From assembly GCF_003253995.1 (NCBI RefSeq), contig NZ_QKZL01000011.1, forward strand, positions 1-64,000: a DNA stretch of 64,000 nt, read 5' to 3'. A program made the position numbers and the translations under genes. This stretch comes from Palleronia aestuarii (GTDB taxonomy: Bacteria; Pseudomonadota; Alphaproteobacteria; Rhodobacterales; Rhodobacteraceae). Numbering within the stretch: position 1 is the first letter of the stretch; every line of letters starts with the position of its first letter. A model generated the notes under the pieces. It saw only the letters and a list, made by a program, of their open reading frames with translations. It did not search any database and was not told the DNA's origin. This document shows, piece after piece, positions 26,444 to 29,540 of the stretch.

Positions 26444-28039
26444 TCAGGCGACGGCGAATTGCAGCGGCCGGACCGCGTTGAACAGGCCCGTGTCCTTCAG
26501 CTTCTGGAGCACGTCCTGCGGCGGCTGCTCGTCGAGATAGAGCAGCGCGATCGCCTCGCGCCCCCGCTCCGACCGGCCGAGGGTGAAGTTCGCGATGTTC
26601 ACCCCGTTCTGGCCCAGCGTCTGGCCGAGCGTGCCGATGACGCCCGCCTTGTCCTCGTTCGTGGTGTAGAGCATGTGCTGCCCGATCTCCGCGTCGAGGT
26701 TGATGCCCTTGATCTGGATGAAGCGCGGTTTGCCGTCGGAGAAGACGGTGCCCGCGATCGAGCGCACCCGCTCGGGCGTCGTTACCGTGATCTTGATATA
26801 GGCCTCGAAGACGCCCGTCTGACCTTGCGTCGTGGTGGAGATGTCGATCCCGCGATCCTTCGCGAGCACCGGCGCGGACACCATGTTCACATCGGGATTG
26901 ACCGACCGCATCAGCCCCGCGATGGCCGAGGTGTTGAGCGCGGCGGTGTTCATCTCCGCCACCGACCCGTCGTAGAGGATGTTGATCTCCGTCACCCCCT
27001 CCTCGGTCATCTGCCCGCAGAAGGCGCCGAGATGCTCGGCAAGCTTCAGCCACGGGCCCATCACGCGCGCCTCCTCGGCGGTGACCGACGGCATGTTGAG
27101 CGCGTTCGTGACCGCCCCCGTCAGCAGGTAATCCGACATCTGCTCGGCCACCTGCAGCGCCACGTTCTCCTGCGCCTCCGTGGTCGCCGCGCCGAGATGG
27201 GGCGTGACGACGACGTTCTCGAGATTGAAGAGCGGCGAGGCGGTGGCCGGCTCCTCGGCGAAGACGTCGAAGCCCGCGCCCGCGACCCGGCCCTCCTTCA
27301 ACGCATCCGCGAGCGCCGCCTCGTCGACGAGACCGCCGCGGGCGCAGTTCACGATCCGAACCCCCGGCTTGAGCTTTGCGATCGCCTCCTTCGACAGGAT
27401 GTTGCGGGTCTTGTCGGTCAGCGGCACGTGCAGCGTGATGAAGTCAGACGCCGCGAGCAGCTCGTCGAGCTCCACCTTCCGCACGCCGAGCTGGTCGGCA
27501 CGCTCCTCGTTCAGGAACGGATCGTAGGCGATGACCTTCATCCTGAGGCCCCGCGCCCGGTCGATGACGATGGAGCCGATATTGCCCGCGCCGATCACGC
27601 CGAGCGTCTTGCCGGTAAGCTCGACCCCCATGAAGCGCGACTTCTCCCACTTGCCCGCATGGGTCGAGGCGTTGGCCTCGGGGATCTGGCGCGCCACCGC
27701 CATCATCAGCGAGATCGCATGTTCGGCCGTGGTGATCGAGTTGCCGAAGGGCGTGTTCATCACGATCACGCCCTTCTGGCTCGCGGCCGGGATGTCGACG
27801 TTGTCGACCCCGATCCCGGCCCGGCCGATGACCTTGAGGTTGCCCGCCTGCTCGAGAAGCTTGGCGGTGACCTTGGTGGCCGAACGGATGGCGAGACCGT
27901 CATATTCGCCGATCGCCTGGGCGAGCTTTTCCTTGTCCTTCCCGATCGACGGGTCGAACGTTACGTCGATGCCGCGATCGCGGAAGATCTGCACGGCGGT
28001 TTCCGAAAGCTTGTCGGAGACGAGAACCTTGGGGGCCAT
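26444..28039 (-). CDS. serA: D-3-phosphoglycerate dehydrogenase
   Basis: First enzyme of serine synthesis, oxidising 3-phosphoglycerate with NAD. Long form of 531 residues: catalytic/NAD domain (IGRAGIGVDNVDIPAA, VIGAGNIGSIVIDRA, catalytic histidine in VVTPHLGAATTEAQ), then an intervening ASB domain and a C-terminal ACT domain (GVIGTLGQTLGQNGVNIANF) for feedback by serine. The ATG at 28039 with GAGGAG at 8 nt is preferred to the GTG at 28048. SerC is encoded upstream on the same strand; the gap holds two palindromes and an unusual 11-bp array. Confidence 0.96.
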   Translation of the reverse strand: MAPKVLVSDKLSETAVQIFRDRGIDVTFDPSIGKDKEKLAQAIGEYDGLAIRSATKVTAKLLEQAGNLKVIGRAGIGVDNVDIPAASQKGVIVMNTPFGNSITTAEHAISLMMAVARQIPEANASTHAGKWEKSRFMGVELTGKTLGVIGAGNIGSIVIDRARGLRMKVIAYDPFLNEERADQLGVRKVELDELLAASDFITLHVPLTDKTRNILSKEAIAKLKPGVRIVNCARGGLVDEAALADALKEGRVAGAGFDVFAEEPATASPLFNLENVVVTPHLGAATTEAQENVALQVAEQMSDYLLTGAVTNALNMPSVTAEEARVMGPWLKLAEHLGAFCGQMTEEGVTEINILYDGSVAEMNTAALNTSAIAGLMRSVNPDVNMVSAPVLAKDRGIDISTTTQGQTGVFEAYIKITVTTPERVRSIAGTVFSDGKPRFIQIKGINLDAEIGQHMLYTTNEDKAGVIGTLGQTLGQNGVNIANFTLGRSERGREAIALLYLDEQPPQDVLQKLKDTGLFNAVRPLQFAVA

Positions 28040-28074
28040 GTCTGGCACTCCTCTATGTCATCTGGAGATGTCGT

Positions 28075-28133
28075 GCCCCGGGTCAGGCCCGGAGCCGCTG
28101 TGGACGGGGGAGGCCCCGGGTCAGGCCCGGGGC
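28075..28133. repeat. Pair of GC-rich palindromes (REP-like) in the serA leader
   Basis: Two copies of CCCCGGGTCAGGCCCGG at 28076-28092 and 28114-28130. The second copy forms a perfect 8-bp stem GCCCCGGG / CCCGGGGC (28113-28120 with 28126-28133); the first keeps a 5-bp stem. Similar GC palindromes are dispersed in alphaproteobacterial genomes, so these may be REP-like units. Confidence 0.65.
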
Positions 28134-28154
28134 ATGTCGGTCATGGGGGAGGCG

Positions 28155-28286
28155 GTGCACACCTGCTGCACATCGTATGTACGCGCGGTGTACGCCGTCG
28201 GCACACGGGAGGTACGTGCGCTGTACCGGTGCTGCACATCCCGTGTACGTCCGGTGCACGCGCGGTGTACGTTCCGTGTACGCCTC
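28155..28286. repeat. Twelve-unit 11-bp array with invariant GYAC core
   Basis: From 28155 to 28286 the tetramer GYAC (GTAC seven times, GCAC five times) recurs with exact 11-bp spacing, twelve times without a gap. The commonest unit starts GTGTAC or GTGCAC; the five bases after the hexamer vary. It begins at the serC stop codon, which overlaps the last unit, and ends about 115 bp before serA. Since 11 is not a multiple of 3 and no stop codons arise, all frames read through, so apparent coding potential here is uninformative. It is not a CRISPR array. Confidence 0.9.
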
Positions 28287-29439
28287 AGGCGGCCTCCCGC
28301 TTCGCGTTGAGCTCGGCGTGGTAGGCCCAGTCGATCCAGGGCATCAACGCCTCGAGATCGGAGGTCTCCACCGTCGCGCCGCACCAGATCCGAAGGCCCG
28401 GAGGTGCATCGCGATAGGACCCGACATCGAGCGCCACCCCCTCCGCCTCGAGCCGCTTCGTCACCGCCTTGGCGAAGGCCGCGTCGCCCGCGACGGCCGG
28501 ATCGGTGAACTTGAGACAGACGGAAGTGTTTGATTTCGTTGCGGGATCTTCGGCGAGATTGGCGATCCAGCCCTGCGCGTCGCAGAAGTCCCAGACCACC
28601 TTCGCGTTGCGGTCGGCCCGGTCCATCAGGCCCCGGAGCCCGCCCACGGACCGCCCCCAGGCCAGCGCCTGGAGGTAATCCTCGACCACCAGCATCGACG
28701 GCGTGTTGATCGTCTCGCCGCGGAAGATCCCCTCGATGAGCTTGCCGCCCTTGGTTAGCCGGAACACCTTCGGCAGCGGCCAGGAAGGCGTATAGTTTTC
28801 AAGACGTTCCACCGCTCTCGGGCTCAGGATCAGCATCCCGTGCGCCGCTTCGCCGCCCATCACCTTCTGCCAGGAGAAGGTCGCGACATCGAGCTTGTCC
28901 CACGGCAAATCCTGCGCGAACGCCGCGCTCGTCGCATCGCAGATCGTGAGCCCGCCCCGCTCCGCCGGGATCGCATCACCGTCCGGCACTCGCACGCCGG
29001 ACGTCGTGCCGTTCCAGGTGAAGCAGACGTCGCGGTCGTAATCGAGCGCGCCCATGTCGACGATGCGCCCGTACTCGGCCTCATGGACATTGGCGTTGAG
29101 TTTCAACTGCTTGACCGCGTCCGTGACCCAGCCCGCGCCGAAGCTTTCCCAGGCGACCATCTCGACGGGGCGCTCGCCCAAAAGCGTCCACATGGCCATC
29201 TCGAACGCGCCCGTATCGGAGGCGGGCACGATGCCGATGCGGTAATCTTCCGGCACGCCCAGAAGCGCGCGCGTCTCGTCGATCGCCTGCGCGAGCTTAG
29301 CCTTGCCGACCGCGGCCCGGTGCGAGCGGCCGAGCGGCGCGCCGGCGAGCGCCTCGAGCGAGAATGTCGGGGGTTTGGCGCAAGGCCCTGAGGAGAAACG
29401 CGGATTAGCCGGCCGCGTGGCCGGTTGCGAGGTCGCCAT
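28285..29439 (-). CDS. serC: Phosphoserine aminotransferase
   Basis: PLP enzyme of 384 residues making 3-phosphoserine from 3-phosphohydroxypyruvate and glutamate. Starts [13 protein letters not shown] as in the alphaproteobacterial SerC branch; PLP lysine in [19 protein letters not shown] at 29439 follows AGGA at about 9 nt; a longer frame to 29523 has no good site. Upstream of serA on the same strand with a 245-bp gap, so serC-serA may be one transcript or two. The stop codon overlaps the last unit of the 11-bp array. Confidence 0.95.
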
Positions 29440-29540
29440 CACTGGTATCCTTCCAGATATGTGCCCTTCGTTGGGGAAGGGTGTCCCGCCTTGCGATCTA
29501 TCCCTCTCCGACCCGCCTGGCAAGATGGCTCGTCACGGCA

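Follow-up and report, generated by a model that had tools for sequence, protein, structure and literature searches.

Between serC and serA on this contig, a short motif recurs at a constant pitch of one helical turn, raising the question of what such a strictly phased array is for. The earlier note on this DNA had counted the motif, had set aside a decaying minisatellite, and had offered a polymeric site for a protein stacking every 11 bp on one DNA face, a repeated RNA contact or a regulatory leader of serA. Here we followed the array through its own genome and through other Rhodobacteraceae, and we argue that a small ribbon-helix-helix protein encoded on the chromosome probably docks along it. 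The window is the whole stretch of 64,000 nucleotides that was analysed, and the features of the locus are as follows.

28157..28288, minus strand: twelve-unit 11-bp array, with canonical units GTACACNGGNC at the serC end, degenerate toward serA.
28285..29439, minus strand: serC (ORF 28285-29523); start inferred (MATSQ, directly after the serC leader), name from the earlier note and the protein sequence.
26444..28039, minus strand: serA (ORF 26444-28048), downstream of the array; start inferred (MAPKVL), name from the earlier note.
28074..28134, no strand: inverted repeat with 23-nt arms, 83% complementary, in the same gap between the array and serA, outside the array.
29440-29491, minus strand: serC leader RNA RF00517, 68.5 bits (Rfam), directly upstream of serC.

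A strictly phased array between serC and serA

Counting positions confirmed that a GYAC core (GTAC or GCAC) occurs 12 times across 28157-28288 at a spacing of 11 bp without slippage, with cores starting at 28157, 28168 and so on to 28278, the final core occupying 28278-28281 and the final unit ending at 28288. The G, A and C of the core are invariant in 12/12 units and its second position is T (7) or C (5), whereas the non-core positions are looser, apart from position 11 of the unit, which is T in 9/12. No other period between 7 and 16 gave a GYAC/GTRC run longer than 2 in the window, the maximum being 1 or 2 at each, and in 60 simulated windows (order-2 Markov) the longest run over periods 7-16 was 2 in 43 and 3 in 17. 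The AC run of 12 was also the sole period-11 dinucleotide run of at least 7 within the window.

The sense strand of the units is the minus strand, which is the coding strand of both serC and serA and on which the units read GTRC. The canonical unit GTACACNGGNC (GTACAC-NGGNC) sits beside the serC stop codon, which the final array unit overlaps (serC ORF end 28285, minus strand). Judged as one element among about 30, the array has a polarity, its canonical end adjoining serC and its units becoming more degenerate toward serA; from it to the likely serA start downstream (28039, MAPKVL), a start that we chose ourselves, the distance is about 118 bp. The inverted repeat at 28074-28134 is REP-like, with GCCCCGGGTCAGGCCCGG arms, and other palindromes were seen by eye after serC in some relatives. 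The SerC encoded here was closest, among the matches listed, to that of Palleronia caenipelagi (82%).

A search of Rfam over 26-31 kb (E <= 1) gave no match inside the array; what it gave was the serC leader and, across the inverted repeat, one miRNA match that fell well short of its gathering score. We rejected a structured RNA, as RNAalifold paired GUAC with GUAC and 0/16 predicted pairs were changed on both sides. With no covarying pairs, and with the arrays of some relatives standing just after terminator-like hairpins, the repeated RNA contact of the earlier note is unlikely.

Dispersed arrays in the same genome

BLAST of the window array against its own genome (G000) found 22 places, and a sequence-only model built from 20 of these brought the number of distinct arrays to about 30. 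In an ungapped alignment of 20 own-genome arrays, with L023 dropped, GT was invariant in all 8 units. The set that we measured comprised 27 of the 30 arrays (L023, L053 and L058 dropped) and held 330 units, with 9-15 units per array and a median of 12; T occupied core position 2 in 98% and C core position 4 in 87%. Linker-letter identity in these 27 arrays was 0.409 between neighbours within an array, against 0.467 between arrays in register and 0.454 one unit off. Neighbouring units are thus no more alike than units of different arrays, the opposite of what a decaying minisatellite would show, and on this point the earlier note was right.

The own-genome arrays stand in all kinds of gene gaps, with one in frame inside valS. 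In 19/28 of them the canonical end lay within 40 bp of a predicted gene end (simple gene calls); a terminator or 3'-UTR element was rejected, since these nearby gene ends are stop codons of plus-strand genes and start codons of minus-strand genes alike. A regulon with a common pathway was also rejected, as the genes flanking 20 own-genome arrays share no visible theme.

Arrays in other Rhodobacteraceae

The own-genome array model matched 7/60 genomes, G000 included. Working from draft genomes, with arrays called by autocorrelation and genes by a simple codon model, we found that relatives keep the 11-bp period and change the word and the length of the array. Arrays are of the GTACACACCCC type with 3-4 units in G024 and of the GTGCACGCCCG type with 4-5 units in G031, and in G009 arrays with GTCGGGC and GTGCAGC run to 11-12 units; in most of the other species examined an array has 3-4 units, against about 12 in the species studied here. 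The copies in G024 and G014 are rather uniform. In G031 a short array (L163, about 1151-1205) was seen by eye within the reading frame of an ABC-transporter ATPase, immediately following the Walker A motif, and in G008 and G013 (L150, L152, L183, L185) arrays begin, again by eye, directly 3' of terminator-like hairpins that end in a T run.

Across 712 kb around serC from 80 genomes, strong repeats (25/33) occurred three times at lag 11 and at most once at every other tested lag, and a looser list (19/24) over the same 712 kb held four at lag 11, one being a GTCCGATGAAA array that L121 has between serC and serA. When used as a query, the L121 array found 27 places in its own genome (G331) at E <= 0.01 and 33 at E <= 1, and nothing below E 0.13 in two other genomes; the G014 array found 18 and 22 places in its own genome at the same two thresholds. 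Five lineages have an array in the serC-serA gap, and the word differs from lineage to lineage: 12 units in G000, 11 in G009, 4 in G024, 4 in G331 and about 4 in G187 (by eye).

In the comparison of serC spacers from 80 relatives' loci, L133 was the only one with at least three GTRC cores in register after serC, and L121 carried its array of another word. The earlier note had held that relatives lacking the array would speak against a function, and taken to the letter this is what the spacers give. Our reading is that the scarcity of the array at relatives' serC reflects a dispersed, lineage-specific system and not a lack of function.

A ribbon-helix-helix gene downstream of the most shared array site

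The most shared array site (L014) stands upstream of a gene whose 140-residue product carries the BrnA_antitoxin domain (PF14384), a ribbon-helix-helix (RHH) family. The own-genome copy of this gene is at G000:C9:60644-61063, outside the window. In the five lineages scanned, the Pfam BrnA_antitoxin model scored 47-60 bits over the RHH domain against a cut-off of 26.1, and homologues were present in 25/41 genomes and in 112/295 genomes of the family. We examined 88 RHH loci, the sum of 27, 21 and 40 from successive homologue searches, with L283, L284, L287 and the weaker matches of the 295-genome search left out; 27 of the 88 came from genomes partly chosen for their arrays and the other 61 were chosen by the RHH gene alone.

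Of ten lags scored over the 460 bp preceding the RHH domain, lag 11 came out alone on top at 63/88 loci and shared the top score at 9; for the 61 loci selected solely through the RHH gene, the figures were 45 and 6. The corresponding single-best counts were 6/79 upstream of serC and 66/880 in random pieces. A lag-11 score of at least 17 was reached at 48/88 RHH loci, compared to 1/79 serC loci and 8/880 random pieces. Three arrays picked because they stand upstream of an RHH gene, those of G187, G113 and G211, were then dispersed at 22, 16 and 19 places in their genomes at E <= 0.01 and at 22, 17 and 31 places at E <= 1 (G211 on one contig); the other genomes included in these searches (three, three and two) gave no match below E 0.03. 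The prediction of dispersal thus held for 3/3 RHH-upstream arrays tried as queries. The position of the array upstream of its own RHH gene probably indicates autoregulation.

Some genomes have two or three RHH homologues. In G297 there are three (L334, L335 and L345), which differ from one another in the strand as well as in the word of the upstream array, apparently orthogonal codes side by side.

We observed no toxin family among the neighbours of the RHH gene in G000, G014, G331, G031 and G320, and in a few lineages scanned no ParA, ParM or SegA-type partner and no recurrent nuclease or transposase. Downstream of the G024 RHH gene come a PIN-domain gene and a small HicB-like gene (L265:1818-2446), the PIN protein having no match downstream at the other 87 RHH loci (the DNA being short for 40 of them); G222 has an AbiEii domain about 740 bp downstream of the RHH gene, and the gene after that of G031 is a weak IS200-like transposase match (18 bits against a cut-off of 23). 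Downstream of the RHH gene of G000 lies a 121-residue gene (L258:1993-2355) with no Pfam match, membrane-like by eye, and relatives of it follow the RHH gene in G008 and G013. A toxin-antitoxin or defence role was rejected as well: PADLOC gave no match for six RHH proteins, and there was no phage record for the RHH protein. Its plasmid relatives were all below 60% identity, several being annotated as BrnA antitoxin family protein, and of two PDB sequence searches with the RHH protein one was empty and one gave three weak ribosomal-protein matches.

Covariation of the array word with the RHH strand

RHH proteins contact DNA through alternate beta-strand residues. We compared strand and array word at the 70 RHH loci with a clear lag-11 array, dropping the 18/88 without one. 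An arginine at strand residue 1 was accompanied by T[AG]CA at least twice in register at 26/33 loci, compared to 0/37 for other residues (Fisher 4e-13, kinship ignored), and a lysine at this residue by [TC]GG without T[AG]CA at 27/32 loci, compared to 0/33 for arginine (kinship again ignored). Among the arginine loci with T[AG]CA, an arginine at residue 5 was accompanied by GT in 18/19, and other residues, mostly with AT, in 0/7.

The arginine rule dates from the first 27 loci, and the [TC]GG and residue-5 rules were formulated with the complete set of loci in view. For the 49 later loci that could be used, which were chosen by the RHH gene alone, the arginine rule gave 16/20 for arginine and 0/29 for other residues, the [TC]GG rule 23/28 for lysine, and the residue-5 rule 9/9 versus 0/7. 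Finer correspondences were read by eye: lysine with Y goes with GTCGGTA or GTCGGCA (6/6), lysine with L or M with [AG]TCGGAC (4/5), and W is mixed (1/2). Exceptions to the code number 7/33 for arginine and 5/32 for lysine, and some of them have a different residue 3, namely N in G113 and G157 and S in G332, G180 and G156.

On a 52-column tree from which the strand was left out, there are 15 changes of residue 1 and 13 of array type; well-supported branches underlie only 3 pairs, a number too small for a test, of which a mean of 2.4 agree and 0 disagree, and residue 5 provides one pair. Collectively, these sequence comparisons indicate that the array word and the putative DNA-reading residues of the RHH protein change together across the family.

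These results also bear on ordinary tandem duplication, in which the arrays would be minisatellites with no protein involved. Tandem single-period arrays do occur in gaps, but the invariant core, the similar length within a genome, the dissimilarity of neighbouring units, the covariation with the protein strand and the successful predictions of dispersal leave this explanation hardly credible.

Sites shared between genera and the valS loop

The flanks of the G000 arrays (72 kb, compared as proteins) were matched by 22/96 array loci of relatives, from nine relatives, against 6/96 for 105 kb of control DNA. All 6 control matches came from the outer flanking DNA of G000 array loci, and the 55 kb taken from elsewhere in the window gave none; L243 and L231 match by construction, their queries having come from serC and valS, and the fairer count of shared sites is 20/94. 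Sites are thus partly orthologous between genera, as at serC-serA and valS.

In valS, one same place carries quite different 11-bp words: AACTCTTTCAT in G014, TCATATGGAAT in G032 and TCCGACGGGAC in G002. The loop could be parsed in 21/30 cases and was plain in about a dozen, at 15-19 residues. Arrays in frame within this variable loop were noted in several genera, each with its own word (L186:1155-1308; L162; L367), and in G033 (L230) a hairpin-like palindrome was seen by eye in place of an 11-bp array. The loop and the RHH gene do not always go together: G032 has its TCATATGGAAT array (L220:1162), yet its draft, 91% complete, gave no RHH match; in G024 and G026 a plain loop occurs alongside the RHH gene; and the G005 loop is without the word found upstream of that genome's own RHH gene.

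Such sites might be permissive insertion points for a mobile or selfish repeat family, whose spread or persistence would be aided by the RHH protein or by an unseen enzyme. Lineage-specific dispersal and in-frame residence in the variable valS loop are in keeping with this, as are the rather uniform copies of G024 and G014 and the weak IS200-like match after the RHH gene of G031; however, in the few lineages whose RHH neighbours were scanned no nuclease or transposase came up repeatedly, and the own-genome arrays share only about 47% of their linker letters. The same sites also carry different words across genera, which would require either that arrays were inserted anew at one spot again and again or that the word changed where it stood. 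We consider a selfish repeat quite improbable.

Gene context of the arrays

In eight genomes, 88 arrays were placed in gaps, 49 tandem, 20 divergent and 19 convergent, and the other gaps of the same loci (n=86) were 50 tandem, 28 divergent and 8 convergent; a further 32 arrays were called coding, partly via spurious ORFs, and 5 were unplaced. In G211, which is a single contig, the array occurred at 21 places (E <= 0.02) all round the chromosome. Their spacing was not even, being not different from random (CV 0.80, P 0.22), and no strand bias by half-chromosome was seen by eye with the origin assumed at coordinate 1.

Like arrays stand after stop codons, between convergent genes and inside valS, so that the window array is not specifically the serA leader that the earlier note had offered as one possibility. 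A broader version of transcriptional control would be that the RHH protein is an ordinary global regulator, that the arrays are its operators and that the serC-serA array tunes serA. The arrays upstream of the RHH protein's own gene and of serA are as expected of operators, and the 49 tandem and 20 divergent gap arrays do stand upstream of genes. On the other hand, 19/88 gap arrays lie between convergent genes (8/86 in other gaps), some lie inside ORFs such as valS, the genes flanking 20 own arrays have no common pathway, and some relatives' arrays follow terminator-like hairpins. The convergent, valS and post-hairpin arrays argue against operators of single genes, and we regard the regulator as rather unlikely overall and only slightly less so if binding is granted.

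A model for the array

Computed directly from the genomes are the dispersal of the arrays and their similar length per genome, the sharing of sites among genera, the presence of an array in front of the RHH gene, and the covariation of residue and word. These observations point to the reading that we prefer and consider likely, in which an RHH protein of the BrnA_antitoxin type, small, chromosomally encoded and with no conserved toxin, docks on the array and stacks one dimer per turn, there as at its own gene and at dozens of other chromosomal sites. From these patterns we infer physical binding and stacking of the protein on the arrays. The RHH dimer would read the GTRCA core of each 11-bp unit through its beta-strand, by residues 1 and 5 of RITIRVD; dimers would stack side by side on one helix face, one per turn, about 12 of them here and 3-4 in most other species looked at; and the protein would coat dozens of further arrays around the chromosome. 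The polymeric site of the earlier note, with a protein stacking every 11 bp on one face, is thus strongly supported by the word-protein covariation, but the candidate is an RHH protein of the BrnA type and not of the OmpR/PhoB class that the earlier note had named.

If the protein binds, we would give roughly even chances to a chromosome-scale architectural or segregation role, by analogy with ParR-parC or archaeal SegB, over control of serA. This role is favoured by the contexts that speak against single-gene operators together with the RHH precedents, ParR and SegB. Counting against it are the random-like spacing and the lack of a visible strand bias in G211, and the absence of ParA or ParM from the RHH neighbours scanned. 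A more specific version is tentative and, to us, somewhat short of even: a free-standing RHH protein would polymerise on 3-12 turns at dozens of addresses, as an undescribed chromosome-organising or segregation system whose addresses have been repeatedly recoded in place together with the DNA-reading residues, in a centromere-like co-evolution that would show as a natural protein-DNA code. We found no paper on this system in the literature searched, which did not cover subscription journals and preprints.

Should binding hold, dozens of genera would represent natural experiments in which one scaffold and tens of targets switch specificity jointly, and the RHH recognition code would be readable and testable. 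Many Rhodobacteraceae would then possess a chromosome-wide protein that has gone unrecognised, and there would be an explanation for the seemingly meaningless 11-bp repeats peculiar to single species, stretches within valS among them.

Comparison with known systems

Direct repeats with 11-bp geometry are familiar from the alphaproteobacterial LexA box, GTTC-N7-GTTC, and from the CtrA site, TTAA-N7-TTAA. The arrays described here share this geometry and differ in having another core, many units and lineage-specific words. The protein matches the Pfam BrnA_antitoxin family, as in BrnT-BrnA type II toxin-antitoxin systems, but there is no conserved adjacent toxin gene in the neighbours scanned and there are dozens of remote arrays. 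Orphan antitoxins are the subject of PMC12654330, going by the part of that paper available.

SegB of Sulfolobales is, according to an excerpt of PMC12284271, an RHH protein with a segregation role and with sites upstream of its own operon and scattered, predominantly intragenic. Scattered chromosomal sites are likewise found here, whereas the 13-bp palindrome and ParA-type partner (SegA) of SegB contrast with our 11-bp direct arrays and with the neighbours scanned, in which no such partner was seen. The RHH protein ParR of plasmid R1 needs at least two 11-bp direct repeats, and the ParR-parC repeat words differ between plasmid systems, as far as the sections available of PMC9426499 describe them. 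The present case resembles ParR-parC in pairing an RHH protein with direct repeats whose length is close to one helical turn, which here stand upstream of the RHH gene. It differs in that no actin-like ParM occurs among the RHH neighbours scanned here and in that our arrays are chromosomal, with dozens of sites per genome and one family recoded across a bacterial family.
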